DNA of 64,000 bases from Laburnicola sp. R22_1 (Eukaryota; Ascomycota; Dothideomycetes; Pleosporales; Didymosphaeriaceae), in the NCBI GenBank assembly GCA_014281115.1, contig JACONQ010000002.1, forward strand, positions 2,666,001 to 2,730,000, given 5' to 3'. Position 1 is the first letter of the stretch. Each line of letters starts with the position of its first letter. Positions 1,825-54,275 of this stretch are shown piece after piece. A model generated the notes under the pieces. It worked only from the letters and a program-made list of their open reading frames with translations, ran no database searches and was not told where the DNA came from. The translations under genes and the position numbers were made by a program.

Positions 1825-1970
1825 TAGAGCAGCACTACTATTATTATTATTTTATTAATTGCGTTATAAGGCGACATAAAGTAGTAGTTTAGGAAGTTAG
1901 AAATATTATATATAGAGTAGAAGAGCCGTCGCCTACTTAACGTAGCCGCTATAGTATTAATAATGCCTAA
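1825..1970 (+). pseudogene. TLH copy A, segment 2: helicase motif Ia region
   Basis: This 146-bp piece carries the helicase reading between the Tc1/mariner and Harbinger insertions. It translates as STTIIIILLIALxGDI and so on, which matches copy B's GGTTVVVIPLIALRGDI, the segment just after the P-loop of RecQ helicases. The differences are C/T and G/A type. It ends at the TAA target site (1968-1970) of the Harbinger element. Confidence 0.85.
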
Positions 1971-2294
1971 GGCAGTGTTTACCTCCCGCTTAGCAGTTTG
2001 CTAGCAGTTTCTAAGAAGCTGCTAAGGGTCTAGTGTTTACCTTCCATGCCCCTGGCAGTTTCTAAGAAGCTGCTAGCGGCCTAGTGTTTACCTCTGGAGC
2101 CAATCTAGTAGAAAATTCTACTAGGGTGGCGTATTGGTGGCGTTTAGTGGCTTCGCACGGACAATAACCTGCCTAAAACAGCAAAACTGCTGGCAGTTTC
2201 TACTAGTGCCCTAGAGGTGTAGAAAAAACTGCTAGTAGAGGCTGCCAAACATTGCTATAACGTTACTTCATACTCTTGCTATTATTATTACCCT

Positions 2295-3640: not shown

Positions 3641-3689
3641 CGCTTGCCTTCGCCTTATCTTAAAGTAGAGAGATAACCTAGTACACCTC

Positions 3690-5063
3690 CGCCTTAAACT
3701 CTCTAGCTAACTATCTCTTAAATAGTTTAACAGCCTACTAGCTTAGGTTCTTTATATTCTCGTCTAGCTTCTTTATAAAACCCTCTAGAACCTTAGCTAA
3801 TTGCCCATTAAACTTACTTAGAGATCGCGCTAATAGATTGGACTTCTTCTTACCCTTTTTACGTACACGACCCTCCCTTCCCTTCTTAGCCTTCTTCTCT
3901 GCCATATACTTACGTATTCCACCTTTGGCTTGCTTCTTCTAACGCTTCTTCTTTAGCTTCCTATATTGTGCGGCTATAAGAGACCTATTAGAGGTTAATA
4001 ACAAAGTAGCTATAATAGACAACGATTGTAATGTGGCTACTAATTAAGAACGCTTAATTAAAGACTGGCTCTTATTATTCTTGCTTTCCTCGCTCTCCTC
4101 TTTATTATTAACGTTATTAAATAGAAGCTCTAATACCTAGTTATTACTATCCTCTGCCTCTGTATTAATTGCAAACTCGCCTGTTGCAACATAATCTCTA
4201 ATAATATTAATAAGGTATTTATAGCCTAGAGGGGATTCGAATTAAAACGCCTTAAACTTAGAATGCTCGCTAAAGTAGCTATCCATAACCTTCTTACTTA
4301 ATTAAGGTAAGCCCTTCTTGTTATCCTCCTATCTAGATAATCTAGAACCTAGGTAATCTTGCCACAAACTTTAGGACTTTCGAAATATCTTATACTTCGA
4401 TTTATAGTTCTTACTAATTACTACCACTCTACCCATATATACCCTATAAATCTTATCTGTTATCTTATTCTAGTGCTTTGCTTTAAAGCTATTAGCCGTT
4501 TTTTTATATTTAATAATCTCTTTAAGAGCCTAAAGCAACACCTCTTCTATTGTCTTAGTCTATTTTATATATGGCGGCTTGCCGCCTAGCGCTATATCTA
4601 GAGTTGGAGTAGCAGAGTCTCGTACCTTAAAAGAAGGAGCTGGCGTGCTAAAAGAGTTTAGTGTGGCAGAAGAGCGTAGAATAGGATTGGCTAGGTTTAT
4701 AGGCACCTTCTAAGTGACTTTAGAGTTAATAGCAGGTCTAACTAGGAGTAGCAAAGGTACTATAATAACTAACAGATCTTCCTTATTATTAACAATAGGA
4801 ATAGGATCTTCTGGGTTGTTACCACTATACTCTGCAGGTTCCGCAGGTTTAGCAGGCCTACTATTACCTCTAGACATATTAACACTATTGTCTAGAGTGG
4901 GTAGGTTAATTAGCTAGGCCTCTTTCTTGCCCTTTGTAGTCCTAGGCCTCTTTTTAAGAGAAGATAATGCCTCTAGGCGTGCTGGGCGCGAACTACCACG
5001 CAGAGGGGTCTTCTAGAGATCGGATTCCTGGGCCTTTTGAGTCCTCTTGCGGGTTCTGGCCAT
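3690..5063 (-). pseudogene. Second Harbinger gene (probable DNA-binding accessory protein), degraded
   Basis: Harbinger elements usually carry a second Myb/MADF-like protein that works with the transposase. A minus-strand frame opens at 5063 with MARTRKRTQKAQES. It continues through a basic stretch (KKRPRTTKGKK), a long Ser/Pro/Asn-rich middle, and a Lys-rich C-terminal half with a probable coiled coil (RKLKKKR, EKKAKKGREGRVRKKGKKSN) ending near 3,690. Internal stops are mostly TAG/TAA in place of Gln or Trp. I do not see a clear Myb tryptophan pattern, so the accessory role is inferred from position inside the element and its basic composition. Two short plus-strand open frames here are shadows of this gene. 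Confidence 0.6.
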
Positions 5064-5272
5064 TTTTAAGGTGGATTGCGACAAAAACAGTGCCAGATTA
5101 GGAGCCTATTAATTTTAAGATTTGGAGTGCGCTAATTAACGCCACTAACTGCCAGACGGAGGTAAACACCACGCCTTCGGCAGTTTACTATATATAGAAT
5201 AGCTAAAAACGCCTCTTAGCACGTGCATATAAAAACTGCCAGCAAATTGCTAAGTAGAAGGTAAATAATACC

Positions 5273-6470
5273 TAAGTTAGTAGTTATATAGGAGTTTGCA
5301 ATATTTATAAACTATTTAAGAATAATATTATAGTTAGACTAAATTATAATTAATAAGTGCCATATTATATTAAACTAGTAGTACACGTTCTATAAGTAGA
5401 TATAGTAGTTAGATAAGTTAGTTACTACTAAGACGTAAATAGTGTTATTAATAGTAATATTACTACCTAGCAAAGAGAATAAGTTATTCTAGCAGATATA
5501 TTTTAATCCTAATTAGGTTAAAGTATTCTATATAGAGACAGCACGGACAAACGTGGCATACTAGGTAATTAAGGTAAGAAGAATAGCTAGAAAAAAAGAG
5601 GTAGAGAAGATAGTGTTAGACGTTGTATAGCAGAAGTTGCGTAGATATAAGAAGGGTAAGGTTATAATATATAGCAATTTAGTACGCAAGATTAAGGCGT
5701 TAGCGTAGAGGTTAGAGTACTATGCGTATTACTATAATATAATTAGTAAGGTAAGTATATTAGAGAATTTTATATTAGGTAGAAAGTAGGTAATTATAAT
5801 AATAAGCGCGTTAGGTATTGGCGTTAATATTCCTAATATCTAGTGCATTATCTATATTAATTAGCTATTTTCTATATTAGATTATATATAAAAGAGTAGT
5901 AGAGTAGAATAAAATAGGTTGTATAGCAAGGCAGTGTTAATAGTGTAAAAGGGGGCACAGCAAGCGACTAAGAATAAATAAGAGAAAAAGAAGCATAAAT
6001 TAGTGCAAGCGTTAGTAGAAAAAGGCGAGAAAGCGTTATATAGGCGGGTAGTGTTAAGTAGATATTTAGATAGCTAAGAAATAGAGCGGGTAGAATGCAA
6101 AGAGAGAGAAGAAAAGTATAATATATATAGGGAAGCTAAAGAGAAAATAAAAAAAGAGGGAAGTAAGAGTAGTAGCAATAAAGAAGAGACAGACGTGGCC
6201 AAAGTAGAGAGGAAGATAGAGAAGAAAATAAAGAGGAAGATAGAGAGGAAAATAGAGAAAAAGGAGATATAGCGTACGTTTTAGTAGTAAGAATAAATAT
6301 AATAAGATTTATAGTAGAGGTTTATATAAGACTAGTAAAAGGTATATACTAGTATAGGATATATAAGACTATAGGTAATAGATAAAGCGCATAGAACGTC
6401 TAGTAATATTAGCGGGTAGAGAGTTAGCAAGTATAGAAAATAATTAAGAAGATTAAGTAGGGAATTTAGT
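5273..6470 (+). pseudogene. TLH copy A, segment 3: rest of RecQ helicase to C terminus
   Basis: The helicase reading resumes after the Harbinger insertion with EFAIFINYLR and IINKCHIIL, matching EFATFLNWLR and INECHIVL of copy B (the DECH box, here with further damage). Near 5,750-5,880 it reads LENFILGRK and ISALGIGVNIPNI, aligning with the helicase motif around SALGIGVDIPNIQC. From about 5,930 the sequence corresponds to the Lys/Glu-rich C-terminal region (repeated KIEKK/KRKIE words at 6,200-6,270). Homology becomes untraceable about 6,470, where a Fot-type element starts. Damage is heavier than in copy B. Confidence 0.82.
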
Positions 6471-22634: not shown

Positions 22635-24520
22635 AGGCTTTGGCCATATTAGCGCCTTTAGAGTATAGGCAAAGTGTAATATAGGGCCGCTTCTAGCTAT
22701 CTATAGTAGCCTAAATAGCGCAGATTAAATTAGTAGTTAGGTTATTATACTGTATCTTATACATATTAAAGACTATACTAGTAAGAAAGTTAGTAGGCAT
22801 AGTGCTCTATATAGTAACTACCTTAAGCGTGGCCTAGTTAAGCGCTAGCTTAAGCCCGCTAAGTATAGTTGTTGTGTTATGCTTAAATATAATAGTTAGG
22901 ATAGTAGTTAAGTAGTTAAGAATAGCCAACACCTACTTCTATAAGATCTCTTTCTTATTACTAATTAATACTATGGCTTTACACTCTACTAAGAAGTAGA
23001 GATAGTTAGTAAAATAGTAGCTAGTTAATATAAAGACGGCACTCTACTTAGCTCTAATCTGCGCGCTAGCAGTATTAGTAAGCGGTTAGTATTTCTTAAA
23101 GATATATAGAGACTGCTTAATAAATTAGCTAGGGCTAGCTGCAGCACGCCGGTGTCTAGCCTATAGATATTAGCTAGAAGAATCTAGATGTTGCCTACTA
23201 CTCTGCATAGTAGTATAGCGTCTTTAGTTAGAGAAGATAGCAAAGCTATAGTAAGAGATATATAGGTAGGTAGGAGAGCGTAGATTTAGTAGTAGTTAGT
23301 ATAGGTAGATAATAATAGCGCGCCTATAGCGAGCGTAAATGCCCTACTATGGCCTTTATAGTAGTAGTTATAAAAAGGCAATAGTAGTTAGTAAGTAAGA
23401 AGAAAAAGAGAGCTAGAGCGCGTTATTAAGGGAATAGTAGAGAGAAAGCTCTTTACACTGTCGCTTCTTTATACACGTCTTCTATTAGTATTTTAGACTT
23501 CTAATATTGTATTCTCTTTCCTAGCTTCTATGTCTCATCCCTATTATATGCTATAATGGCATAGATTTTATAGTTATTACAGAATTACAGTTTAACTAAA
23601 AGAATCTAGTTTAAATAATAGTACTAGCATAAACTATAGGCGGCGTAGTAAGGCGAACTTAATTACTATATAGTAATAGTCGCTTTATTATAAGAAATGT
23701 TGTGCTATAGCTAGTAGCAATAATATAGTAGAAGGTAAGACTATACCTATAGGCGATAAATATAAGCGTAGGCGCTAAGTAATAGTAGTATAGTCCGAGA
23801 CTTGTTTAGCAACTATACTATAGTAAGCGCTAGTGTCTAGACTAGGTAGGTCTATGTCTCTAGATAAATAGACGCCGGGACTAGGCGCATTCTAGCTATA
23901 CTTAAAGAAGGCCCTATCTTTAGCGTGGCTTATTTATAAAAGTAGCCGTAGTAAGAGTAGCTATACTATTATAAGTATGCGTAAGACTTATAACTATATA
24001 TACACTTTAGACTAACTATACTACTACTATAATATTATCTCTAATTTTTAATTCTATAATAGTACACGTCTAAGTATCTTATATAACTATAACTATAGCA
24101 TAGAACGCTCTCTTTATAGGGGCGAGCCTCTACTACTACACGTCTAGTATTCCTATCACTATAGTAGGAGCTCTTCTTTTTATAGGCGTGGCGATTATCT
24201 ACCTCTGGCTACTTATACGCTATTACGTATGGCATTTCTAGGCTATATATATTAGTCTATTTAGTAAGTATATCCGATTATAGGGTATATAATGTGTTTA
24301 CCATATTTGCAGTAGAATACGTTAGATTTATAGCTTAGTTAGTCTTAGTCCGTATCCCTAGTAGTGTAGGTCTATTTATTATTAGCTATCTTGCACTTCT
24401 ATAAGCACGCCTCTACTCTCTTAGAAGAGCTAAAAAGCTAATTATTATATGCTGTATAGGCTAGCTCCTTCGTTTATGGCTGCAGCGTGCTACGCTACGT
24501 TTAGTCGGCTTCTATAAGCT
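22635..24520 (+). pseudogene. Coding relic R2, right part
   Basis: The frame left open at 17,505 continues here: GHISAFRV, ALNSAD-like SLNSAD, then HIKDYTSKKVSRHSALYSNY (about 22,765-22,830), LKRGLVKR, KPAKYSCCVMLKYN, and further to an Arg/Lys-rich part near 23,730-23,790. A second coherent block (DAGTRRILAILKEGPIFSVA at about 23,875 and SDYRVYNVFTIFAVEYVRFI at about 24,270) reaches the Fot element near 24,520. There are no signature motifs of known transposases. Because a Copia insertion splits it and the frame survives, this is a genuine old coding sequence of unknown function. Confidence 0.45.
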
Positions 24521-24524
24521 AGCG

Positions 24525-25548
24525 TATACAGATACGAGTCACATAGGGTTTCGAGTCACCCCACCAAAACGCGACACCTGCACAAAACACGCGGTTTCTC
24601 TCTACAACGCCTTTATAATTGCCATTGAGTACACATAGATTTAAGCGTTGTAGCTGCTATAACTACTGCAGCCCTTTCTAAAGCGCTTGCTATAGTAGAT
24701 CTACGTTGCTAAGCTACTAAAGCCTTAGCTGCGCGCATAGCCTCTCTAATAGTCTCTACTTCTGTAAAGCGTTAATTTGGGTCTATCTAAATGCGCTTTC
24801 AACGACGCTGAGAGCTAGCAGTTTGTAGGTGATGCTTAAGGCGTCTTTTCTCTGATTTAAGTCCTGCAGCTCTAGCATTTGCAGCTGCTAGCGCCTTACC
24901 TGCTTTCTGTAGGAGTAGCCAGGTCCTACGACCTAGATTCTTGACGCTCTGGACGTCGCGCTGCGCTATATAGAGATCGCGAGGGCCTTAAGGGGTTGAG
25001 AGGAAGCTCTGAGGCTACTGCTAAGGCTGCTGCTGATGCGTAGGCGTAGTAGGCCTCTGGGAGACTTGCGACGAGCTAAGCACGTGATTGATGTTGAATG
25101 GGCAGATACCAGCAGCCTGCCAGCCAGCTCGAATCACACGCTCTGTGAAGCCTTCCTCCCTAGCTTGATAGTAGCAGGCAATAAAGCGCTCCTTCTTAAC
25201 AGGTGCGGCGTTGTCGAGCGATGCGAGCTCCTGGATCTGGCGTCGGTAACTAGACTTGATTACAGAGAATGGAGCGAGATCTAGAGGCTGTAGGACGTGC
25301 GACGAATGCGTAGGTAGAGAAGCTTAATTCGATGCTGTTTGCAAAGCTATAGGAAGTCTATGTTAATATGGCTGCCGTGACTGTTGAGGATAAGGAGGCG
25401 GTACTGGCCATTACCTACAGCCGTCTCGGGGATAAAAATGCGCTGTAACCACTCAACACCTATCGCGTTTAACGTCCATCCATTCTCTGAGGTTGTATAC
25501 AGCCAGCTAGGTACGTAGGACGATAGGAACTAGGTAGTTTGTAGGCTC
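24525..25548 (-). mobile_element. Fot-type transposon, copy 2, truncated (C-terminal half only)
   Basis: The outer end at 24,530-24,590 has two iterations of a CGAGTCAC word followed by CCCCACCAAAACGCGACACC, the same terminus as Fot copy 1 at 6.5 kb. The element then runs as minus-strand transposase C-terminal half and is cut off at about 25,548, where purine-rich minisatellite DNA begins. The opposite terminus and N-terminal half are missing. It is one of the least mutated sequences in the window. Confidence 0.82.
24610..25545 (-). pseudogene. Fot-type transposase, C-terminal fragment
   Basis: The reading opens at the truncation with TSENGWTLNAIGVEWLQRIF and YRLLILNSHGSHINIDFL. The family's catalytic DGHGSH or DSHGSH is NSHGSH here, so the Asp is lost by G to A. 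After one small frame break it continues NAAPVKKERFIACYYQAREE, ERVIRAGWQAAGICPFNI, a Gln/Pro/Ser-rich linker (HQQQ), a coiled-coil-like Arg/Lys stretch (GLKSEKRRLKHHLQ) and a tail with IQIDPNQRFTEVETIREAM. Few stops occur. Its quality makes it the best guide for decoding copy 1. Confidence 0.82.
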
Positions 25549-25639
25549 TAGAAAAAAGAATAGAGAAAAAAAAGAGAGGAAAAGTAAAAAGTATAATAAG
25601 AGAAAATTATAATAGAATAATAGTAGAGTAGAATATATA

Positions 25640-25995
25640 AAAAGAGTTAGAATTTTATAGTAAAAGAGAGTTAGAATTTTAAAGTAAGAAAAGAGTTATA
25701 ATTTTAAAGTAGTAAGAGAGTTATAATTTTAAAGTAAAAAGAGGGTTAGGATTTTAAAGTAAAAAAAAGGTTAGGGTTTTAAAGTAAAAGAGAGTTAGGG
25801 TTATAGTAAAAGGGAGTTAGAATTTTAAAGTAAGAGAAGAGTTACAATTTTAAAGTAGAGAGAGAGAGTTAGAATTTTAAAGTAAAAGAGAGGGTTAGGG
25901 TTTTAAAGTAGAAAAAGGGTTAGGATTATAAAGTAGAAAAATAATTAGAGTTTTAAAATAAAAAGAGGGTTAGGATTTTAAAGTAAATACAAAGT
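25640..25995 (+). repeat. Minisatellite with GTTAGGRTTTTAAAGTAAAA core
   Basis: About 14 imperfect units of roughly 24-30 bp repeat the core GTTAGRRTTTTAAAGTAAAA separated by GAGAG spacers. Several units keep GGGTTAGGG-like words (25,770-25,800, 25,900-25,925). Units vary mainly G/A, consistent with decay of a G-richer ancestor. Confidence 0.85.
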
Positions 25996-26690
25996 TTTAA
26001 AGAAAAAAAAAGTTAAAATTTATAAGTATAAAGAGATTTAGTATCTAGAAATATAGTAAGTATTAGAATTATTAAGTAAAAAAAAAGAAATTTAGTTAGA
26101 ATAAAATAATAGTTTATAATATTTAAGAATATATTTAGTATTAGCGTTATATATAAGAAAGAAAAGAAAAAAGTAATATTATATAAAAATTAAAAGAAAA
26201 AATAATAAAATAGTATAGAGTATAATATAAGAAAAGAGAAAGGTATAATAAAAACAGTATTATAAAACTAGTAGAAGAAAAAGAAAGAATTTATAAATTA
26301 GAAAAGTAAAAAAATTACAAAGAAATAAAGAGAGAATTATACAGTAGAGTTAGAAGAAAGAAAAAAAAAGTAAGAAAAGAAGAAGGTTAAAAGAAAGAAT
26401 AAAAAATAGGAAGAGAAATAAAAGAGTATAATAAAAAAAGAATAAAAGAAGAAAAAGAAAAGTATAAAGTAAAAGAATAATAGTAAACAAAAGAATAGAA
26501 TTAAATAGTATAGAGAATAGAATAAGATAGAGGAGGAATAAAGAATAAAAATAAATAAAGATAAATAGTAAAGAAGAGTAGATAAAGAAAAGAAAGCAAA
26601 ATAGGAAGAAGAAAAAAAGAAAAAAAGAAAGTAAAGATAGAAAATATTATAGAAGAAAAGAATAATAAAAAAGGTAAAAGAGTAGTTTTA
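25996..26690 (+). repeat. Purine-rich (A/G) low-complexity tract
   Basis: The plus strand is almost entirely A and G with scattered T for about 700 bases (for example AAGAAGAAAAAGAAAAGTAT). No gene is supported. It ends at a sharp switch near 26,690. Confidence 0.8.
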
Positions 26691-26729
26691 TTTTATGTTA
26701 TATGCACTCTATATGATTCTTACTCTACT

Positions 26730-27480
26730 TTCTTATATTAATTTTTTATCTTTTTTACTCCTATTTCTTTAAAACCCTAACTTTGTTTTTACTTCTTATT
26801 TTATAAACTCTTTTTACTTTTTTTTCTTTTAATTACACTCTTCTATATAACTTTTTTATATATACTCTTTTACTTTTTCTTTCTATTCTCTTTTATCTTC
26901 TTTTTAGTTTTTCTTTCTTTTCTATTTTTATTATCTTATACCTACCCTATAATTCTACCTTTTTTTTATCGTTTTCTTATATTATATTATACTTTATACT
27001 CTTCTATTCCTCCTTACTCTTTATTATTTTTTTCTTTAATTTTTATTTTCTTATTTTCTACTACTCTCTCTTATTATAATCTTTTCTATTTTCTATTTAA
27101 CTTTAACTTTAATAAAATCTTTCTACTTTTTAAACTTTTATTTTATTTTATTTAAATCTCTTTTACTTTTTCTTTTGTATATTTCTTTTATCTTCTCTTT
27201 CTATATTATGTTTTTTATCTTTTCTTTATTTTCTTTTATTTCTAAACTCTAAACTTTCTTTCTAATTCTTTACTTACTTTTAACTTATATTACTTTCTTA
27301 TAACTCTTTCTTATAAACTTTAATTATCTTTTTACTTAAAAGCTCTACCTCTCTTTATACTTAAAAATCCTAATCCTCTTTTTATATTAAAATTCTAATT
27401 CTTTCCCTATATTAAACTCCTAACTCTCTCTATACTAAAAATGCTAATACTCTCTATACTTAAAAACTCTAACCCTTTCT
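26730..27480 (-). repeat. Pyrimidine-rich tract with inverted copies of the minisatellite core
   Basis: Composition flips to C and T on the plus strand. At about 26,770 and at 27,345-27,475 the inverse of the 25.6-kb core appears (ACTTAAAAATCCTAATCCTC and relatives, about six units). The same minisatellite family therefore lies in opposite orientation on the two sides of 26.69 kb. Confidence 0.75.
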
Positions 27481-27649
27481 TATCTATTTTATATATAATT
27501 TTTCTTTTTTTTCTTTACTATTTATTCTATTATATTCTTAACTTAATAAAAAAATTTCTTAATTTTATATTCCTTTATTTTCTATAATCTTATCTATATT
27601 TTACTTTATTCTATCTTACTTTTTTATATTTTATATTACTTAATAATTC

Positions 27650-27790
27650 TATTCTATTCTATTATTCTATTCTATTATTCTATTCTATTATTCTATTCTA
27701 TTATTCTATTCTATTATTCTATTCTATTATTCTATTCTATTATTATATTCTATTATTCTATTCTATTATTCTATTCTATTATTCTATTTT
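27650..27790 (+). repeat. 13-bp tandem repeat TTATTCTATTCTA
   Basis: About eleven near-perfect copies of a 13-mer stand in a row, with one ATTATATTC variant near 27,740. The array lies between the pyrimidine tract and the 3' end of TLH-B. Its low divergence suggests recent expansion. Confidence 0.92.
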
Positions 27791-27949
27791 ACTACGCTAT
27801 TCTGCCTTATATTTTATACTATACTATTAATCTATTTTCGGCTTATTTTCTATACGCGACCTATATAAAAACGCTCATTATAAAAAAAAATTATCTTGTA
27901 ATCTAATATTATTCTTTTACTACGCTAATTAATGCTAATCTCTTAAACG

Positions 27950-30900
27950 TCGTTACGTCCTCTACTCTACTACTAATCGCGTTATCCAACAAAACTCTCC
28001 TGCCAAATTATTACTTTCAACCGTTTCTAACACTCGCTTCTTTCCTAAAAACGCAACTAACGTCTGCCCTGCTCCCGAATTGTCTACTCTAAATCTCGCT
28101 AACCGTGCTGTCTACCACTCTTCTACTTCGGTGTACCCTAATGCCACGCCTATTAACCCGCCTACCAACACCCCTCTGTGCTGACAATTCCCGTCTTTTG
28201 CTCTCTAATACCGCCCGTAACTATTCCTCTCCCACTGGTTACATATCTCCTGCGGCACCCCGCACTAAAAACACCCCAAATAACTCTCAAACTTGATCTG
28301 CTCCTCGATTGTCTTAATTGCTTCTTTTGTACTTTGGCTCTTCTGTCGCCAACACCACCGTACATCGTGCTCGCTCTGCCCATCCCCCGCCGCCTCGCAT
28401 ATCCCGCATCGATTCGCCTACCATACTAACTGCCTACGCAACCACTCTATATCTGCAAACTCCTGTTGCCGCTGCTGTATCAACGTCTGCTGCGGGCCTT
28501 ATTGCTCCTGCTCCTGCTGCTAGAACGCTCGCTGCGCCTCCTTGCCTCTCGTCTTAACTATATCTATCTTGTTGTCATCGCTGCTGTCTTCGCTGCTGTC
28601 CTCTTTTGTCTCTTTGTCTGCTTCTCTGCACATGTTACATCTCTCCTCCCCTTCTTTACATCCCTCTTGGCCCTCTTGCCTGTCTAAATACGCGTTTAAC
28701 ACTCGCCTTTGGCACTATATTGTTAACCCTTCCCCTTCTATATACAACTGAACTAATTGCTGTTCTGCCTTAGTTGGCTTGTTATCACACGCTTGTTTAT
28801 CCCCTTCCTGCCCTATGATGATGGCCTCGCTCTACAATCCATCTCGCCTTGCCCTGCCGCTCTCTTGTGCGTAATCCAACATCGTCCGCGGCCAATCTAT
28901 GTGAATGATGCACTGGATGTTGGGTATATCCACCCCTATCCCTAATGCGCTTGTCGCTACAATTACCCGCTGTTTGCTAGCTATAAAATCTGTTAATATG
29001 CTTGCTTTGCCTACTGCGTTGTAATAATACGCGTTGCATGCTAACTGCTTTGCCAACTTCTTGACCTTCGGCACGGAATTGCCGTATATTACTACCTTGC
29101 TGGTTCGGTACTGTCTCAACTTCTGCTGCGCTATCTTTACTACGACGGCCTCTATATCCTCTTTTGTTAACGCCTTGTCTACCTTGACTATCTAATATGC
29201 CACGTTCGTCCGTGTTGTCCTTGCTTGGAATATCTTAACCTGATCCCGCTCGAAATGCATCTGTTGAAACAACTCGCCCTCCTTGCTTGGCGGCAACATC
29301 GCTGTTAACAACACTATCTGCGTTTTGGCGGCTACTAACTTGCCTAACTGCTGTATCTGCTTGCGGAACGTGTACCGCCGGTTCAACACGATATGACACT
29401 CGTTGATTACGATCCGGTCCAACTGCCGCGTCGCCCGCAACCAGTTTAAAAACGTCGCAAACTCCTTTCCTACCGCCGACTCGGGCGTCACCAACACCAC
29501 CGCGGCTGCGTCGGGCGGACGGCGTCCCTCCCACGCTGCACACGATATCCCCAACAACTTGCACCGCCGCATTATGTCTCCCCGCAACGCAATTAACGGA
29601 ATTACGACGACGGTGGTCCCGCCCTGCTCTGCCCACGCCGGCAACATGAATAACAAACTCTTTCTACCGCCTGTTGGCATCACAGCCACAACGGGGCTCT
29701 CGCCTGCGATAATGGCGTTGATGGCTTCTTTCTGCACGCCATAGAACTCCGCTGTCCTGTTTATTATCTGCTTCAACTGCGCTGTCGTGTCCATCTTCCT
29801 TAATCGCCCCTATCAATCGATCCTCGCCTCGTCCGCTTCGCTCTCAAACGGCGCTCTCTTTCGCTTCTTGCTCGTCGTCTCCTCCACGTCGGCTTGGAAC
29901 CCTAAAAATCGATGCCAATCCGTACTTGACGTCCGGAACTGCTGTCGCTTGTCTGCCACCGCCCCGGCTTGCTCCATAATCCCTCGCGCGTATATTAATC
30001 CTGCAACGTGCGCGGTATGTCCTGCCTACTTGTTGGCAATCGACGCGCCTATATTCTCCTTATCCCACTCCTTATTCTCGTCTCCCTCTTCTGTCCGAAA
30101 TGCTGCGGATCCACGTAAAAATCGCCGGCTTATGCTAATGGCAATCTTGCGGTACGCGGCAATCGTCAACTTCTGTCCTATCCCGATCTGGCTCTCGCGC
30201 TTTAACGCCTCCCGCAACCTCTCTGTCGTCCACTTGCGTTCGTTGGGGTCCGCCGGCCACATGTGTGACGACACGCTCTCCTTTTCCTATACTAACGCCT
30301 CTAACCGCTGCTGGAACAGCAACACTAACTACATATACAACACCACCAACTCGCCTACCTTGCGCGGCAAATATTAATAAATAATCTTAATGTCGCCGCT
30401 AACGTTGTATCCCTTGTAGTAACGCGTTACAAGCACTACTATGCCGTCCTTAATGAATATATTGCGGTGCCCCCCTTTTATGGTATTGCTATGCCGGACG
30501 CTTATTATTTCTAGTCCTTTTACTAGCTGTCCGCCTGCGATGTGCATTAACACGGCCAACTTCTTCTGAAACTTAACGATGCGCCCTATGTACCGCTCAA
30601 CGGCCTTTTAGTCCACCCCTAAACGCGTTCCTGGCTTTATGAACCTGTCCCAGATGCTGGCATCTCTCCCTACCTGCTCAAACAACCACCTCTCTTTATC
30701 TACGGGCATGCGGGTGCGATGGTCCTTTAAAAAATTCCATTCGGGCTATTTGTTGGTCGGGTTGTCTCGCATACTCTCCTATAGGACGCTGGGTATAGGA
30801 TCGGCGGCCTTGCTGGTGCCGAATATTAACTCCTCCACTAACAACCGCTAGCTTTCGGTCGCTAACCCATGCACTATGCCGCGGAACTAGGCCATATTAA

Positions 30901-32674
30901 ACTGCAACCCCTTGTACAACAACTTGTCCCCGCCTATCCACTTAACATAGCCGCGCGACGTCGTGTTGTAATGGATCTTTAACCTGTACGTCCGCAAATC
31001 CAACATCTACTGTATGGGTCCGTAGGTGCCTCGCACCATAAACTTGTCTATTATCTTTTGCACAAACTGCAAACACCCCTTGGGCCGGCGCGGGCGCGGG
31101 CGGCTACTGTCGCTCTTGTACGCGCTGTTGTCGTCGAACTCGTCCTTATTCTTGTCTAATGGCTCGGATAACTCTAACGCCTATTGCACGACTATAAAAC
31201 AGGCCACTTTAATAACTGCTAACAATATTGGCGGATACTACTTAGGGCCCTTCCACCTGTCCTCTTTAACGCCTAACACCGCTAACGCACACACTAATAG
31301 GCTGTCGTACTCCTTGCGCGTAATAGACTAGTTTAACAACGCGATGCAAAACTCTAAACACGCCTTTTGGATTTTCGATAAGTTTTTAGGCTTACTGCGC
31401 TCGGCACCTTCTGCCTAACACTGCTCCTCCCTAGCGTCTCCCTCCTCTATTGACTTATCTACGTCCTCTGTCAACTCCTCTATTATCTCCTTGTCCCTAT
31501 CCCCTGTCTCTTCTTCCACTTCTTCTTCTTCTTCTTCTTCTTTTTCTTCTTCTTCTTCTTCTTCTTCTTCTTCTTCTTCTTTTTCTTCTGCCGCCTCCCC
31601 CTCTACTTGCCTCTCTGCCTGTTAGACCAACGCCTCCTATGCCTCCTACTGCCGGCGCGTGAACCGATATCGGGGGCTCTTCTATATATACTCCTTCTGC
31701 GTGCGTGCAAAAAACATTAACATCTGCTGCCACAGCCACGCGTGCTTAATAATGGCCTCCTTGTCTATATACGGCTGCAATAGCTAGAACCGCGTCTGGT
31801 GCTTCTCTGTCCAGATCGCCTCTAATCGCACAAACACGCCAATACGGTGGATAACAGACGCCTGGCTAAACCGCGCTAACCTATCTATAGCCGCCCAAAT
31901 CACTGCTTCTACTAGCTCTGCCTCCTCGTCTTTCCTAGGATTGGCGTCAGCAATGGGCTCTTCAACGCACGCCAACAAATTAGGCCTCTCTATACCCACT
32001 AAATACGGCAGCCACTGCGTCCGCTTTAACTATAGGTTTACCTTATCTCTTTTGCTGTCTTAGATAGTGTTCTACGCCCGCCTCTCGATATTCTCCCACG
32101 CCTCGGCCATCTACTCGCCCACCTGCGCCCATACTGCGTCACCGTCTACAGGTACGGTGTCAGGGCCGCCTTCGCTGGGCTGCCGCACCTTGAAATACTG
32201 CGAACCCTGGCCCTGGACAAAAAATCGCTAGCAATAGACAATTTGGGAACTATTGCTGATGCGGTCGCGTATCTTCTTCGCCTCTAATCAACTTGGACGG
32301 CCACCTTTGTCCATCAGCGACTAATTATAGGCGTCTCTCCAATGGTTCTTCATCACGCGCTCGCTTCGGAATATCTAACAGCAATGCTTTGGCTCAATCC
32401 AACACATTAACCCGTCTATATACACTGGTAACTGCTGTATAGGCTTAATAATCTGGCTGGGCACCTCTAATTCGCTAGCATACTTAATTAACCCGGCCTA
32501 GCTGCGGACTTTGTCTGCTATTAATTTGGCCTGCTTGCGTCTAACAGGGTGGGCACGCTGCAAATAACTTGCTACCTAACTAGGCAACACTGCGTGCCTG
32601 CACTCTTAACATATAGGCAACGAATACTTAGCTAAATGCTTAAAACAATTGTCTGCAACGGGTTTCTCTGCCAT
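27950..32674 (-). pseudogene. TLH copy B: OrsD-like zinc finger / tyrosine-recombinase-like / RecQ helicase
   Basis: This is the best copy of the repeat, about 1,570 codons from Met at 32,674. N terminus: C-x2-C (codons at 32,609-32,611 and 32,600-32,602) then a QRAH end, and a second Cys/His finger near MKNHWRDA, resembling the OrsD (DUF3505) finger pair. An acidic Glu/Lys tract lies at 31.5 kb. The centre has AGGQLVKGLEIISVRHSNT, VVLVTRYYKG, AAYRKIAISISRRFL and AGHTAHVAGLIYARG, with spacing as in tyrosine recombinases (Lys 30,518-30,520 and Glu 30,509-30,511; Arg 30,149-30,151; His 30,017-30,019; Tyr 29,990-29,992). The C terminus is a RecQ helicase: MPTGGRKSLLF, INECH for DECH (29,402-29,404), ALGIGVDIPNIQC, QESGRARRDG, then a Cys-containing tail. 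Scattered TAG/TAA stops disable it. RecQ assignment is firm, recombinase is inference. Confidence 0.85.
31513..31588 (-). repeat. GAA trinucleotide run coding a Glu/Lys tract in TLH-B
   Basis: The plus strand shows a TTC run with a few TTT interruptions. In the TLH sense this is (GAA)n, giving a poly-Glu stretch with some Lys between the zinc-finger and recombinase-like parts, probably a flexible acidic linker. Copy C has a shorter, decayed run near 52,620-52,680. Confidence 0.85.
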
Positions 32675-32741
32675 AATGGCGGCGATAGAATGGCTTGCGG
32701 CGGACTGGTGCTAACAACGGGTAATAACAACGGGTATAATA
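32675..32741 (-). promoter_or_regulatory. TLH-B 5' region, proximal part
   Basis: These 67 bases upstream of the TLH-B Met codon contain two copies of ACAACGGGTA. They are separated from the rest of the upstream region (34,855 onward) by the pogo insertion, which would have cut any promoter from the gene. No TATA box is certain. Confidence 0.45.
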
Positions 32742-32789
32742 CTGTGTCCGTGCACTCAACGCCCGGATTCAGTCAACGCCCCGCTGAAC
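32742..32789 (+). repeat. Left terminal inverted repeat of pogo copy 3
   Basis: This repeat is identical to the inverse of 34,807-34,854 and begins directly after the TA target. Perfect identity in a RIP-prone region points to recent arrival or to escape from mutation. Confidence 0.95.
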
Positions 32790-32830
32790 GCAAACCACCC
32801 CAAATTTCAACACGCCATAACGCCACCAAT

Positions 32831-34750
32831 ATGAGCTCAATTGAGGCTGCAATTAAAGAAATAGAATCGCTAAGGTCAGAAGAATCTTTCTCTTATACTA
32901 AGATCGCTAGCAAGCATGGCGTTGATCGAAGTACGCTGTCGCGAAGGCACCAAGCGATTCAAACGACGCGTGCAACTGCGGGGTTTAACCGACGGAAACT
33001 CAGTCCCCAACAAGAGCAGGAGCTTGTACAATACATTGAAGGGCTTACAGCGCGTCACTTGCCACCCACAAGAGAGATGATACGAAATTTCGCGTTAACA
33101 ATAGCCAAGGAGCCAGTGAGCGAGAGCTAGGTTACTCGCTTCATTAACCGACACAACATCCATCTGATCTCTTGATGGGCAGCTGGTATGGACAGCAATC
33201 GCCACCAAGCCGACTTAGGGGATAAATACAGCCTGTATTTTGATCTCCTGGGTGCCAAAATCAAGGAATATGACATCGAGCCTCGTCACACGTATAATAT
33301 GGATGAAAAAGGCTTCTTAATTGGTATCACTAGCTGATCAAAACGAGTGTTCAGCAGACGAATGTGGGAGAATAAGGAGGTTATAGCATCTCTCCAAGAT
33401 GGCTCTTGTGAATGGATTACCCTCCTAGCGTGTGTTTGCGCTGATGGATCAGCCTTGCCGCTAAGCCTCATCTATTAGGCTACCAACAAGGCTATACAAT
33501 CAAGCTGGGTAGAGGATATTAAGGCAGGAGAGCACTTAGTACACATTTCCTCGTCGCCTTTAGGCTGGACAAACAACGATATCGGCCTTGCCTGGCTTGA
33601 ACAGGTGTTTGATCGCTACACCAAGGCAAAAGCTCGACGGTCTTACTGGTTACTCATCCTTGATGGCCATGGATCTCACGTTACTATGGATTTTATCGAC
33701 TATTGCGACCGTAACAGGATACTCCTAGCCATCTTCCCCCCTCATTCAACCCACACGCTTCAGCCACTTGATGTGGTTCTATTTAAGCCTCTATTAACTG
33801 CGTACTCAAAGGAGCTATCAGATCACCTCCACCAGAGCCAGGGACTCCTCCCTATTAAGAAAGGGGACTTCTTCCCTCTATTCTGGGAGGCCTGGACGAG
33901 CTCTTTTAAGGAGGAGACGATACTTAAGTCTTTTAAAGCAACAGGCATATCACTATTCAACCTAGAGGTTATACTCAAAAGGTTCACCAACACTACCCTA
34001 GATGAGCAGGAATCGCGAGAGAGCTCTACGTTAGTACTCAGCGGATCTAACTGGCGTAAACTAGACCGCCTTGTACGATCCGCAGTAGAAGATCAGAGTA
34101 GTAAGGACGCGCAGAAGCTTAGCCGCTCACTCCACCACATCTTAGTTCAAAATGAGTTACTTTACTATAAGATTGCTGGGTTAAGAGAGGCTCTTACTAC
34201 GAAAAAGAAGCACAAGGAGAAGGGAAAACCTCTAGATCTGCAATAACGTCAAGAGTACTATGGGGGGGCGGTTTTCTGGTCACTAAGGAAGGTTAGGGAG
34301 GCTCGCGTACGTTAGTCTGTAAAGGAACAAGAGGAGAAGGAGCAGAAGCTTCAAAAAGCTAAGAAGGCTGAGTTAAAGAAGGCAGCTAAGCTATGCAAGG
34401 AGAAAATTGCAGAGGAGAAGCGTGTGGCAAGGGAGGCAGCCAAGGTAGCCAAGGAGAAGGAGAAGGCTAAGAAGGCAGCAGAGCGTGCTCGCCAGAGAGA
34501 AGCTCGCGACGATGTAAAAGCTCTATAATCTACCCAAAAGGGTAAGAGAAAGGCCTTGCAGCCATCTATATAGAGCAACAAGCGTTAAAAACGCGTAGTT
34601 AATACTATAACTACTTAGGAGGCTTTAGGTGCCGCATTAGCAGCTCCACCTAAGACCACGCGGCACGGCCGCAACGTTAAGCTTCTAAGTAAATATAAGT
34701 AGCACAGGTGAATTGCAAGCATCAAAATAGTACTCTACTACAAAATCTCG
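32831..34750 (+). pseudogene. pogo-type transposase (HTH plus DDE), few inactivating changes
   Basis: One frame runs the full length from MSSIEAAIKEIESLRSEE. A helix-turn-helix follows (SYTKIASKHGVDRSTLSRRH), then a second CENP-B-like DNA-binding part (LSPQQEQELVQYIEGL). The DDE core keeps all three acids: YNMDEKGF, LLILDGHGSH and LQPLDVVLFKPL. The C terminus is a Lys/Glu/Ala coiled coil (KKAELKKAAKLCKEKIAEEK). In-frame stops are TAG at 33,128-33,130 (Trp expected), TGA at 33,173-33,175 and 33,335-33,337 (both where Arg CGA is likely), TAG at 33,476-33,478, TAA near 34,244 and several further on. The catalytic residues are intact but no full protein can be made. The true stop lies between about 34,697 and 34,755. 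Confidence 0.9.
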
Positions 34751-34806
34751 TAATAATAGCGATTTTGTGTGGCTCTGCAGCCTTATTTTAGTTAAGCTGC
34801 TATGGT

Positions 34807-34854
34807 GTTCAGCGGGGCGTTGACTGAATCCGGGCGTTGAGTGCACGGACACAG
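34807..34854 (-). repeat. Right terminal inverted repeat of pogo copy 3
   Basis: This is the inverted partner of 32,742-32,789, identical over 48 bp, followed by the TA duplicate at 34,855-34,856. Confidence 0.95.
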
Positions 34855-34856
34855 TA

Positions 34857-35325
34857 ACGGGTTACGGGTGCGCGCGGATGGGAAACGGCTATATATATAA
34901 AATATATTAATTCTACGGCCTTATTTACTACGCATACTATATACCGCCCCAGCCTCCTCTATCCTACTATGCAACTAAACGCATATTTGGGTTTCGTGGT
35001 TGCGACTCATCATCTCGGAACGTCCTCCGACCCCGGACAGTTAACGTTCGCTGCATCCTCGCGGCCTTGCTAGCTTAACCCTAACCACGAATACCAAACC
35101 CTAATATCCTTAACCACACGCGTCCTATACGCGAAAATAAGTTGCATAATACAACCTACTGCGCCAAATAACATACTTAAATTTCAGCTCTATTGGCCTA
35201 CAGGAACCTAACGACACCGACCCCTTAAAGTTAACGACATAGAGCCTATGTACCTGTATCTACGCAGGGGAACAAATATTTCATCACTAACAAATCTGAA
35301 ACAAAAACGACATGGAGGGCTGGAT
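34857..35325 (-). promoter_or_regulatory. TLH-B 5' region, distal part, with telomere-like motif
   Basis: This non-coding, GC-moderate stretch was continuous with the TLH-B start before the pogo insertion. It contains TTAACCCTAACCACG at about 35,078 and AAACCCTAATATCC near 35,097, which resemble telomeric CCCTAA. The last part (GGAACCTAACGACACC to about 35,360) is alignable with 54,100-54,270 upstream of TLH-C, so this is a shared 5' region of the repeat family. Its regulatory role is inferred from position only. Confidence 0.5.
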
Positions 35326-35329
35326 GTCG

Positions 35330-35730
35330 TTAACGCCCTGGGATAGGGCAACTATCTTGTCGAGATTCGCCTTCTGTTATTCGTACCTTCGGTCGAGTAA
35401 CTTGAAAGTTTCGAGTTAATCCTTATAGAGGTCGTAATCCTCTCTGTACGCCCTTACGCCAGTCGTCGACAGGTCTAACGGCCTTGTTGGGCGTGCGCGA
35501 GGGTTGTTAGTATTCGCGTTAATAAACGCTAGACTTAGTGCATAGCCAACACTAATGTTTAGTGGGATTAGAATAACTAGTTGGGTCATAGGTTAGATCT
35601 CTTAGTCTGGGTCAATAATATCCCAGATCCCTAGAGATTGGGCGCGGGCTTTAATTTGCCTTAGCCATGGTGTATAGTTTGAGTAATCGAATAGAATCAC
35701 TATGGGATCTCTAAGCGTCGATAAAGACAT
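35330..35730 (-). pseudogene. Copia-type gag N-terminal fragment
   Basis: A minus-strand frame from Met at 35,730 reads MSLSTLRDPIVILFDYSNYT, then PWLRQIKARAQSLGIWDIID, then SVGYALSLAFINANTNN, VRAYREDYDLYKDxLETFKL, and ends about 35,330 at VALSQGVNDIQP. The opening (a short target loop, Trp-Leu-x-x-Ile-Lys, Leu-Gly-Ile-Trp) is the classic start of fungal Copia gag proteins. Only about 130 residues remain, with no zinc knuckle or pol. Two or three TAA/TAG stops replace Gln. It lies directly upstream of the TLH-B 5' region in the same orientation. No LTR could be identified beside it. Confidence 0.75.
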
Positions 35731-48984: not shown

Positions 48985-51900
48985 CTTTATAACCTTAACT
49001 CTAAATCCTTATATACCTACTTTTCTAATAATTAGGTTACCTAATAAAACTTAGCTACTAACTTAGTTACTTTTTATAAAATTAAATAGCTACTTTATTC
49101 CTAAATACTAAATAAACCTATTTATAGACGCTATATTAGCCCTTTACTCTACTAATTGCCTGCCCTAATACAACACAATAAACGCCTTATTTCCTAATAT
49201 AATTCTAATTAACCCACCTACTAAAATACTATAATTCTAATAATTGCCGCCTTTTACACGCTAATATTACCTATGCCTATTCTCTTTCTATTAATTATAT
49301 ATTTTCTACAGCACCCTATACTAAAAATAACCTAAAAATAGTATAATCTAAATCTTCTACTTAATCTTCTTAATTATTTTCTACGCTTACTAACTCTCTA
49401 TCTACTAATATTACTAAATATTATATATGCTCTATCTATTGCCCGCGGCCTCGTATATCCCACACTAATTTGCCTACTATACTAACTATCTACGCAACTA
49501 TTCTATACTAGTATATACCTTTTACTAGTTTTATATAAACCTCTATTATAAACCTTACTATGTTTACTCTTACTACTAAAACCTATACTATATATTTTTT
49601 CTCTCTATCTCTCTCTTTACTTCTCTCTTTATCTTTGTCTTTTTTTCCCTCTTCCCCTCTACTTTAACCACGTCTAACTCTTCCCTATTATTGCTATTAT
49701 TACTACTATTCTTCTTAGTCTCTTCTCCCCTCTTATATATATTACACTTTTCTTCTTCCTCTTTACACTCTACTTACTCTACCTCTTAGTTATCTAAATA
49801 CCTATTTAACACTATTTGCCTATATATTGCTATCTTGCCTTCTTTTACTAACACTTATACTAATTTATACTTCTTTTTCTCTTATTTATTCTTAGCTACT
49901 TACTATGCCCTCTTCTACACTATTAATACTATCTTACTACGTAACCTATCTTATTCTACTCTACTACTCTTCTACGCATAATCTAATATAGAAAATAGCT
50001 AAATAATATAGACAATATACTAAATATTAGGAATATTAACGCCTATGCCTAATGCGCTTATTACTATAATTACCTACCCTCTACCTAATATAAAATCCTC
50101 TAATATACTTACCTTACTAACTGCGTTATAATAATACGCATAGCACTCTAACCTCTATGCTAACTTTTTAATCTTATGCACTAAATTGCTATATATTATA
50201 ATCTTGCCCTTTTTATACCTACGTAACTTCTACTATATTATACCTAATACTATCTCCTCTACCTCCTTATTTCTAGCTACTCTTCCCATCTTAATTACCT
50301 AGTATACTACGTTTATCCACACTATCTCTATATAGAATATCTTAACCTAATTAGAATTAAAATATATTTGCCAAAATAACTTATTCTCGTTGCTAAACAG
50401 TAACGTTGCTATTAATAATACTATCTATATCTTAGCGGCAACTAACTTGCCTAACTACTATATCTATTTGCAAAATATATACTACTAGTTTAATATAATA
50501 TAGCACTTATTAATTATAATTTAGTCTAACTACTATATTACTCTTAAATAGTTTATAAATATTATAAACTTCTATATAATTACTAACTTAGGCTACTAAC
50601 ACTATAGTAGCTATATTAGGCAGGCGCTAGCTCTTCTACTTTGCATATAATATTCCTAACTTTCTATACTACTATTTTATATTACCTTATAACGCAATTA
50701 ATAGAATAATAATAATAGTAGTGCTACTCTACTCTACCCACACTAGCAATATAAACAATATACGCTTACTTATCCCTATTAGTATTACTGCTATAACTAG
50801 GCTCTCTCTAGCCATAATAACTTTAAGAGCTTCTTTCTACACGCTTTAAAACATCACTATCTTGTCTATTATTTATTATAGCTACTTAGTAGTGTCTATC
50901 TTCCTTAATTGCCCCTATTAATTAATTCTGGCTTTATCTACCTTACTTTTAAATATCGCCCTATTCCACTTCTTATACCTATTATCCTCCTTAGCGTCTA
51001 GTAGAAACTCTAAAAATTATTACTAATCTATACTTAATATCTAAAACTGCTACTATATATCTACTATAGCCTTAGTCTACTTTATAATACCTTATATATA
51101 TATATTAACCCTACTATATACGCTATGTGCTCTACCTATAAATTTATAATTATAACTACTATATTCTCTTTATTCTATACATTATTCTTATTACTTTCCT
51201 CTGGCTAAAATGCCATAGATCCGCGTAAAAACTATTAACTAATTCTAATAGTAATTTTGTAGTATGCCGCAATTACTAATAGCTAGCCTAACCTAACACT
51301 AGTCTTACGCTTTAATACCTTCTATAATCTATTAGTTATCTACTTACATCTACTTAGATTAGCTAGCCATATATATAATAAAATAGCCTTCTTCTCCTAT
51401 ACTATTATCTTTATTTACTACTAGAATAGTAATACTCACTATATATAATATACTAATCACTTGCTAATTTTATATAGTAAATACTAGTAAATAATCTTAA
51501 TATTACTACTAATAGTATAATCCTTATAGTATCTTATTATAAATACTACCTTACTATTCTTAACAAATATATTATAGTGCGCCCCTTTAGCCATATTACT
51601 ATACTAAATACTTATAATCTCTAGTCCTCTTACTAGCTATCTGCCTATAATATATATTAATATAATTAACTTCTCTTAAAATATAACTACCTAGTCTATA
51701 TACTACTTAACCTCTTACTAGTTAATGCCTAAATAAGTGCCTGGCTTTATAAACTAGTTTCTAATCTAGGCGTTCTAACTAACCCGCTTAAATAACTACC
51801 ACTTTCTATCTATAGGTATATAGGTACGCTAGTCTTTTAAAAAATTCTACCTAGGCCACTTATTAGTTAGATTATTGCGCAAACTTGCCTATAGGATACT

Positions 51901-53699
51901 AGGGATAAGTTTAGTAGATAGGCTATTACTAAATAATAAATTCTCTATTAATAACTACTAACTCGCAGCTACTAACCTATACACTATACTATAGAACTAG
52001 GCCATATTAAACTATAACTTCTTATATAATAACTTATTCTGCCCTATTTACTTAATATAACCACGTGATATTATATTATAATAACTCTTTAGTCTATATA
52101 TTTATAAATCTAATATCTATTATATAGGCCTATAGCTGTTGCGTACTATAAACTTATTTATTATTTACTAGACTTACTATAAACTTATTTATTATTTACT
52201 AGACTTACTATAAATACTCTTTAGGCTAGCGTTACTATAAAATACTATTACTATTAATATTATCTTTTATAAATAAGTCTAATAAGTCTAATACTTACTA
52301 TATAACTATAAACTAGGCAACCTTAATAATAGCTAATAAAATAGGCAAGTACTACTTAGCGCCTTTCTATCTATTCTTTTTAACCCTTAATATAGCTAAT
52401 ATACGCACTAATAGGCTATTATACTCTTTATAAGTAATAGACTAGCTTAATAATATAATATAAAATGCTAAATATACTTTCTTAATATTTAATAATATTT
52501 CTAGCTTATTACCTAACGCACCTGTCTTTACTTAATTCTAGTTATTAGCCTCTATCTCTCCTACTACACTATCTATATTATCTATTATCTTCTTATCTAA
52601 ATTTTTATCTTTTATCTTTTCTATATCTTCTTCTTTTTCTTTTTCTTTCTTTTTCTCTTTTATTACTCTCTTAGCCTTCTTTACTAACGCCTTTTATACC
52701 TTATGCTACCGCTTAGTAAATTAGTACTTAGGGCTCTTCTATACGTGCTCTTACTATGTTTGCTAAAAAAAATATTAATATTTACTTTTATAGCCAGGCA
52801 TACTTACTAATTAACTTCTTATCTATATATAGCTATAATAGCTAGTACTATATCTAGTACTTTTTAGTTTAGATAGCCTCTAATCTTACAAATACCCCTA
52901 TATAGTAAATAATAGACGCCTGGCTAAATTACGCTAATTTATCCATAGTCTCCTATATAGCTACTATAATAGGCTTTTCTTTAGCTTTAGGCTTCTCTAT
53001 ACTTACTAATAATTTAGACTGCTCTATGCCTACTAAATATAGTATTTATTCTATCCACTCTAGCTATAGGTTTACCTTATTCTACGCGCTATTCTAGATT
53101 ATTATCTCTGTCTACTTCTATATATTAGCCCACGCCTTATCTATATTTCTACTAATTTACACCCACCCTATCTTGCTATCTATAAGTTTAGGAGTAGAAT
53201 TAGATTGCTAGATTTTAAAATACTGCAACCTAGCGCCTTAAGTAAATAATTACTAGCAATAAATAGGCCTATAACCCTGCTTACTACGCACCTATATACC
53301 TTTCTACTCTATTTAACTTAGATAGTTACCTTTACCTACTAGTAACTAGTTGTGTACCTTTTGCTAATATTTTCTTATTACCTTTGTGCTTTAAAAAACC
53401 TAGTAGCATTAGTCTAGTTCTAATTAATATATTAACCTATCTATATATACTAGTAACTGGCTAATAGGCTTAATAGTTTAATAAGGCACTTTTAGCTCGC
53501 TAGTATACTATATTAATCTAGCCTAACTATTAATCTCTATTACTATGTATTTAGCTCTCTTATAGGTAATCTAGTAGTAACGCTATAAATAATTCTAAAT
53601 ATAGCTAGGTAAAACGCTGTACCTACATTCTCTATAGACTACTAATAAATATTTAGGCAAATGCTTAAATAACTTGCCTACAACACTACTCTCTACTAT
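48985..53699 (-). pseudogene. TLH copy C, full length but heavily RIP-mutated
   Basis: This copy aligns with TLH-B throughout, in the same order and orientation. The start codon is ATA at 53,697-53,699 (Met in B), followed by LFKHLPKY and RECRYSVLPSY for the first zinc finger. The central part keeps box I as LVRGLEIISI, with Arg at 51,628-51,630 where B has Lys. Box II reads AAYYKITIRIS, so its Arg is lost. Box III reads EHIAYIVGLIY with His and Tyr kept at the same nine-residue distance (about 51,110-51,145). The helicase P-loop is GISKR and most Trp/Gln codons are stops. The C-terminal limit near 48,985 is approximate. It has no transposon inserted near its start. Confidence 0.83.
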
Positions 53700-54275
53700 A
53701 ATAGTAGATTTAACGCGATACTGCTATAGGTAATTACTAATAATAGGTTCCTATAATAAACTATAGGCGCTGCAATAGGTTATAGGCTATATTATAGATA
53801 ATATTTAGTGCTAGTAATTAAATACATATTACTACTACTACCTATGCCCTACCAATTATATTATATAAATATTTTAACTTCTAAAATTCTTTGCAATGCA
53901 ACACGTGTTAGCTTTTAGTATTCTATTCTTCTTATCTTAAAATATACTCTAGGGTGTGATTGCCGCCTTATTAACTTTACTCTAACCCTAACGCGCAACC
54001 CTAACACCTATAGCTATATAGGTTTTAGGGCTGCAAATTTGCTAAAACGTGCAACTTAACGCGCTAAATCTTTAAGCTAAATTTAGGGAAAATTAGTCTT
54101 TAGGAACCTAACTAGACTAGTACCTAAATATTTACTAAACTTAGCCTATATAATAAAATAAACGTATAGGATTTAGGCTAGTACAAATATTTTATCTCTA
54201 AGAGAACTAACTTTAAAACTAGACTTAGTCCTTAGTCTAGTTACCGCCCTAGAATAGGCTATTATACTATTAAAC
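53700..54275 (-). promoter_or_regulatory. 5' region of TLH copy C
   Basis: This sequence upstream of the TLH-C start matches in outline that of TLH-B. It contains TCTAACCCTAACGCGCAACCCTAAC-type telomere-like words near 53,975, and from 54,100 to 54,270 words such as AGGAACCTAAC, ACAAATATTT and GTTACCGCCCTAGAATAGG align with 35,205-35,360. Homology ends at about 54,275, within what is the gag fragment in copy B. Confidence 0.5.

Follow-up and report, generated by a model that had tools for sequence, protein, structure and literature searches.

A tyrosine recombinase-like domain in telomere-linked helicase repeats of Laburnicola sp. R22_1 and a possible route of chromosome-end replacement

Introduction

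Telomere-linked helicase (TLH) genes are described in passages of PMC11893274 as helicases of unclear function at the chromosome ends of many filamentous fungi. Here we analysed one TLH gene and the repeat that carries it, TLH-B, in a stretch of 64,000 nucleotides from Laburnicola sp. R22_1 (assembly GCA_014281115.1, contig JACONQ010000002.1, positions 2,666,001 to 2,730,000), which is called the window below. The original prediction, made from the letters of the window, had placed a tyrosine recombinase (YR) domain between the zinc finger and the RecQ helicase of this gene, and had proposed that the gene is a recombinase-helicase fusion and the repeat a mobile element. The portions of the TLH/RecQ and YR literature covered by our search (including PMC12857005, PMC8381367, PMC11893274, PMC11231334 and PMC3212892) contain no account of the recombinase domain or of an exact element end. 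We hold with moderate confidence that the TLH repeat is a one-ended YR-RecQ mobile element which replaces chromosome ends.

The TLH gene encodes a three-part protein

The TLH gene lies on the minus strand of the window, from about 32650 to 27900, and it encodes an OrsD zinc finger, a tyrosine recombinase and a RecQ helicase in one protein. Its Pfam matches are OrsD, DEAD and Helicase_C. In the read-through frame, the OrsD zinc-finger region (PF12013) occupies residues 18-122 in the N-terminal part of the gene (32333..32647, E 6.7e-16), and the helicase is formed by DEAD (residues 988-1136, 29291..29737, E 5.2e-14) and Helicase_C (residues 1192-1287, 28838..29125, E 1.5e-12). RecQ helicases were the first matches when the family profile was searched against PDB sequences. 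The YR domain with its N-terminal part (398 amino acids, 29894..31087, with in-frame stops) lies between OrsD and DEAD and is supported by the AlphaFold2 model m216ec32a3781 and its structure matches.

The four motif strings that had been quoted as recombinase boxes indeed lie in the same minus-strand frame and in the expected order, from 30535 to 29984. Box I (R..E, GGQLVKGLEIISVRHSN) is at 30485..30535, with Lys at the Arg position. The β-hairpin with its Lys, VVLVTRYYKG, is at 30410..30439. Box II (AAYRKIAISISRRF, 30119..30160) retains the Arg and has Ala at the His position, and box III (AGHTAHVAGLIYAR, 29984..30025) holds the His and, nine residues further on, the presumed nucleophilic Tyr. 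The window copy has decayed and contains 13 stops in the 1401 bases around the YR domain. In the same 1401 bases the least damaged of the 20 copies that were fetched from the genome, L010, has 1 stop (L numbers denote loci or fetched stretches, C numbers contigs). Dinucleotide indices across the 20 copies vary in the manner expected from repeat-induced point mutation (RIP).

The recombinase residues are near-invariant in distant homologues

The central part of the protein was used as the query of a first homology search, which gave 572 proteins. The best 120 were listed and 118 of them were aligned. The Arg and the Glu of box I and the hairpin Lys were present in all 118; the box II Arg was present in 116 (2 gaps), the box III His in 116 (1 Tyr, 1 gap) and the Tyr in 117 (1 gap). 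A second search started from an 11-row profile and yielded 710 proteins, of which again the best 120 were listed; many of these are short gene models, with up to 46 gaps at one position. When both listings were pooled (best 240, gaps excluded), the box I Arg was found in 236/239, the Lys in 238/238, the box II Arg in 203/208, the His in 190/196 and the Tyr in 192/193.

The 118 homologues are fairly close and share many conserved columns, so 26 non-redundant distant relatives (<50% identity to the reference) provided a stronger test. Only 13 of the 392 columns were invariant in this alignment. The Glu, Lys, box II Arg and Tyr were kept in 26/26, the box I Arg in 25/26 and the His in 23/26. The set R, K, R, H, Y is thus near-invariant in homologues as far as 38% identity, and a loss of Arg and Tyr in intact homologues, which would have contradicted the original prediction, did not occur. 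The motif set is conserved beyond chance; the Lys at the Arg position of box I, which the prediction had accepted as part of the motif, is limited to decayed copies, and the family residue is Arg.

The Ala in place of His in box II, already named as the weak point, is real and family-wide. Among the 118 homologues this position is A in 74, Q in 31, P in 5, H in 2, R in 2, S in 1, another residue in 1 and a gap in 2; in the 26 distant relatives it is mostly S (13), Q (6) or A (4). The His of HxxR is therefore absent from nearly all family members, and this weighs against our reading. Topoisomerase IB enzymes are likewise not known to carry the box II His, so this residue does not define the YR/topoisomerase IB superfamily.

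The predicted fold resembles the recombinase core

The predicted models of the YR domain aligned with XerH, XerA and Cre better than with unrelated folds. They had low pLDDT (predicted local distance difference test) values around the Lys, His and Tyr stretches, so the catalytic-core fold of the YR/topoisomerase IB superfamily is present as a prediction, next to the R, K, R, H/W, Y set of this superfamily, which the TLH family does possess. A fold prediction unlike a recombinase, the other outcome that would have spoken against the original prediction, was not obtained. Together, conserved residues and predicted fold support a recombinase-helicase fusion.

The domain shares with XerH, XerA and Cre the predicted core fold, the R-K-R-H-Y set and the nine-residue distance from His to Tyr. 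In the structure alignments with 5jk0 and 4crx, the aligned ends place the family His on XerH 335 and Cre 315, in a stretch of low pLDDT. We take these two to be active-site residues. The TLH domain differs from the three enzymes in that the box II His is nearly always missing, the stretch between boxes II and III is longer, and the domain is fused to OrsD and RecQ. No recombinase was listed in a PDB sequence search with the YR domain, and no YR was among the matches listed for TLH proteins in Pfam, PHROGs and PDB sequence searches.

Topoisomerases were also among the structure matches. Together with the loss of the box II His, this would suit a domain that has only the fold of a YR and keeps the motif for structure or DNA binding, with no catalysis. 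The near-complete retention of the Tyr in the best 240 listed proteins, and of the other catalytic residues, argues against such a domain. By contrast, the domesticated Crypton YRs (DUF3504) no longer have the Tyr or the second Arg, according to passages of PMC3212892. We consider a non-catalytic domain very unlikely; the near-invariant active site gives TLH genes an enzymatic role that can be tested.

The repeat had further been proposed to be of a Crypton- or Starship-captain-like kind, and this part of the prediction was not supported. With E values up to 10 allowed, neither five full-length homologues nor 11 trimmed domains had Phage_integrase (PF00589), DUF3435 or GCR1_C among their listed matches, so by sequence the TLH recombinase appears to be neither a Crypton nor a Starship captain. 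CryptonF elements resemble the TLH repeat as fungal YR elements. Their proteins contain GCR1_C, and Cryptons carry direct repeats of 4 or 6 bp at both ends (described in part of PMC3212892), whereas for the TLH repeat GCR1_C was not listed, a single end is defined and no continuation of the target was found beyond the copy. Starship captains are likewise fungal YRs that mobilise DNA, and Starship boundaries are defined by use of empty insertion sites (both from sections of PMC11231334). The match to DUF3435 (PF11917) that marks captains was not listed for TLH proteins. The genome holds 88 listed DUF3435 matches, several without stops; none of them coincides with a TLH place, as read from all 88 rows and, for 27 of these, also by script. 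Telomere resolvases were also considered. The protelomerases TelK and TelA produce hairpin ends; TTAGGG repeats stand at most of the TLH-bearing ends that were scanned, and the structure matches of our models to telomere resolvases were weak.

TLH copies reside at chromosome ends and point outward

The genome (63.9 Mb in 26 contigs) was searched with the DNA of the YR domain. At least 41 scored matches were found, a lower bound with 40 of 60 candidates scored. Of these, 39 are no more than 200 kb away from a contig end, toward which they are oriented; the other two are the window copy, at 2.70 Mb of a 4.77 Mb contig, and one match that was not placed relative to a contig end. A RecQ helicase gene repeated at chromosome ends is what characterizes the fungal TLHs, and we class the family among them. 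Consistently, two listed homologues carry the names "telomere-linked helicase 1" (P0239) and "Telomere-associated helicase" (P0172).

TTAGGG repeats were present at the end of six of the eight copy-bearing stretches that were scanned, and at the end of C7. The outer side of the repeat has no sharp end: it is AT-rich and of variable length, and passes into TTAGGG where the contig end could be read. At the right end of C7 (L046, C7:2530400-2530859), unrelated DNA is followed by 36 bp of the TLH 5' end and then directly by telomere repeats. In the window copy these 36 bp correspond to 35312..35347 on the minus strand. On C23 one copy is cut by telomere repeats within the recombinase region. The contig ends of L046 and L014 extend about 40 bases beyond the telomere repeats. 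We presume these bases to be an Oxford Nanopore barcode, which suggests that the reads truly ended at chromosome ends.

FoTeR and MoTeR telomeric retrotransposons also reside at fungal chromosome ends, and FoTeRs co-occur with TLHs (passages of PMC12857005). They differ in using a reverse transcriptase and inserting into telomere repeats, whereas the TLH targets that could be resolved are C-Y-R sites (Y, pyrimidine; R, purine) in older copies.

The repeat has an exact 5' end with a preferred target

The TLH-B repeat of the window belongs to subfamily A and lies on the minus strand at 26687..35347. It was delimited with blastn against 19 other genomic copies, five of which were compared with the window, and by its junctions. 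Its 5' end is exact at 35347 (the C of CTATCCC), and homology extends down to 26687, interrupted at 32741-34855. Two subfamilies of the end exist, A (5'-CTATCCCAGGGCG / 5'-CTATCCCAGGGCGTTAACGAC) and B (5'-CTAACCCAGGGCG / 5'-CTAACCCAGGGCGCTAAATC). Scanning of every position in the 20 fetched stretches gave 22 occurrences of the 5' end. They represent 19 distinct places with differing upstream sequence, in 17 of the 20 loci; in L010 the end falls outside the stretch, L018 begins inside the element, and in L016 none was seen. What precedes the end is either an older TLH copy, truncated at a point that varies from place to place, or other sequence. An exact end in many contexts supports the claim that the repeat bears marks of mobility.

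At the subfamily A end in the window (35304-35347), an 8-bp inverted repeat, AACGACAT/ATGTCGTT, flanks a 10-bp spacer, an arrangement reminiscent of a small YR core site. By eye, no comparable inverted repeat was seen at the subfamily B end. Also by eye, the flank just upstream of the junction in L011 resembles another gene of the OrsD zinc-finger type that the TLH end has truncated.

To read the intact target from copy L010, we used the 11 places that lie inside older copies with an alignment score above 70; the other seven of the 19 were left out of the count because their target was not within a recognisable TLH copy, and one had a lower score. The target begins with C-Y-R in 10 of the 11 places (background 3.8%; binomial P 6.5e-14, which is post hoc because the motif was derived from the same sites). 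Slid offsets are the fairer control. With the lower-score place added, C-Y-R was found in 11/12, compared with 1 of 12 at one of eight slid offsets and 0 of 12 at the other seven. The single exception is at C6 40315 (ACA). Positions adjoining C-Y-R show no such preference, except for a purine at +6 in 12/12 (the region has 61% purines). Target position 953 was used by both a subfamily A copy (C8) and a subfamily B copy (C3). The element itself starts with CTA; the target agrees with it at position 1 and, at positions 2-3, either agrees or shows a transition. This pattern fits what is expected from wobble-tolerant pairing in a three-nucleotide strand swap, and RIP on the targets could also blur the letters of C-Y-R.

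That the end is exact at all 19 places is evidence against two other explanations. In the first, the YR descendant is kept for host telomere work, such as the processing of joint molecules or ends, ordinary subtelomeric recombination and break repair build the arrays, and the element does not move by itself. Residence of 39 of the 41 matches near contig ends agrees with it, as do suggestions in parts of PMC12857005 and PMC11893274 that TLHs bear on telomere maintenance or genome stability. Homologous exchange, however, yields no identical non-homologous 5' boundary at many targets that prefer C-Y-R, and we regard a host role of this kind as unlikely. In the second, a linear extrachromosomal element with telomere-like ends (5' CTAACCC, 3' TTAGGG) is caught at broken ends by microhomology end joining, and the YR has another task there or none. 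Subfamily B does start with CTAACCC, one unit of the C-strand telomere, and the short target matches resemble microhomology. Such capture would be expected to leave variable trimming and repeat numbers, yet all 19 places start at the same base (copies without the whole end, such as L016, would escape this count), and the CTATCCC of subfamily A would not be written by telomerase. We think linear capture quite unlikely. YR activity would account for the exact boundary of the repeat.

Array junctions lack the outer remainder of the older copy

Four subfamily A junctions in the helicase part (on C15, C3, C5 and C23) were compared with what nested insertion would leave. At each of them the older copy ends within 13 bases of the 5' end of the next copy, and no separate match to the missing outer part was found on the same arm. 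As a positive control, the same search recovered the outer remainder on C1, where an insertion of 10 kb separates the two parts and 5 bases overlap. Nested insertion as a general rule was therefore rejected: the remainder was absent at four junctions while the control worked. Among the 12 arms with at least two copies, the outermost copy reaches the helicase end in nine, and all inner copies are cut in seven of those nine.

Some arms do not agree with replacement of tips by whole units. C6 left and C8 right also hold a complete inner copy, and the outermost copy is itself incomplete on C3 right, C5 left and C6 right. With these exceptions, the arrays fit replacement of the tip by a telomere-reaching unit better than insertion in the middle. 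Neither a two-ended insertion nor an empty site was found in this one genome, at the window copy and the four array junctions.

A possible mechanism of end replacement

In a one-ended YR-RecQ element, the YR would make two cuts, one at the 5' end of the element (CTAWCCCAGGGCG) and one at ^CYR in the top strand of a subtelomeric target. It would then exchange about three nucleotides and link the 5' end of the element to the target; pairing of C-Y-R with CTA is possible provided that T-G and A-C wobbles are tolerated. The resulting junction would be resolved, or copied outward to the telomere of the donor, perhaps aided by the RecQ helicase. The target chromosome would lose its old tip and gain the element with a new end, and incomplete copies may be capped by new telomere repeats. 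Catalysis of the junction by the YR, the swap and the help of the helicase are the parts of this scheme that we infer from the residues, the predicted fold and the junctions.

If the scheme is true, the TLH repeat is a YR element that needs no second end, and it offers a mechanism for the rearrangement of fungal subtelomeres. More tentatively, and as a proposal that we would sooner doubt than assert, TLH repeats could form their own class of mobile DNA: one-ended, chromosome-end-replacing YR elements whose 5' terminus is joined to C-Y-R by a wobble-tolerant swap, with the tip discarded and RecQ driving the copying to the telomere. They would then represent the DNA-based equivalent of target-primed telomeric retrotransposition, with the fungal TLH genes as their transposases.

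Surroundings of the window copy

Simple insertion of the window copy was unsupported. The outer part of its 5' flank is a multicopy repeat, which we read as a retroelement. The 84 bases adjoining its 5' end have one paralogue (76%), on C12, and the continuation of this paralogous target was not found beyond the 3' side of the window copy. L047 (C13:371900-372400) is another internal 5' end, 372 kb into a contig of 1.73 Mb for which no YR-region match was listed.

The interruption in the 5' part of the window copy (32741..34855, plus strand) is an inserted DNA transposon of the DDE_1/Tc5 kind, recognised as a gap against other copies and by DDE_1 and HTH_Tnp_Tc5 in its open reading frames. On the other side, head to head with the copy, lies, in inverted orientation, a piece of the AT-rich 3' region of the element (25549..26686, plus strand), with 95% identity to element positions 4847-5988 of L018. 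This head-to-head layout in the middle of C12 resembles an old fusion between two chromosome ends, or a misassembly; an old end-to-end fusion would explain the internal position of the window copy. Window positions 24515-25549 hold a partial DNA transposon that is cut at 25549; it is apparently about 1.8 kb long with 96-bp inverted ends and has many copies at 85-97%. Other TLH remnants in the window, which form part of the head-to-head layout, are oriented to the right within 3-5932 and to the left within 49193-53704.
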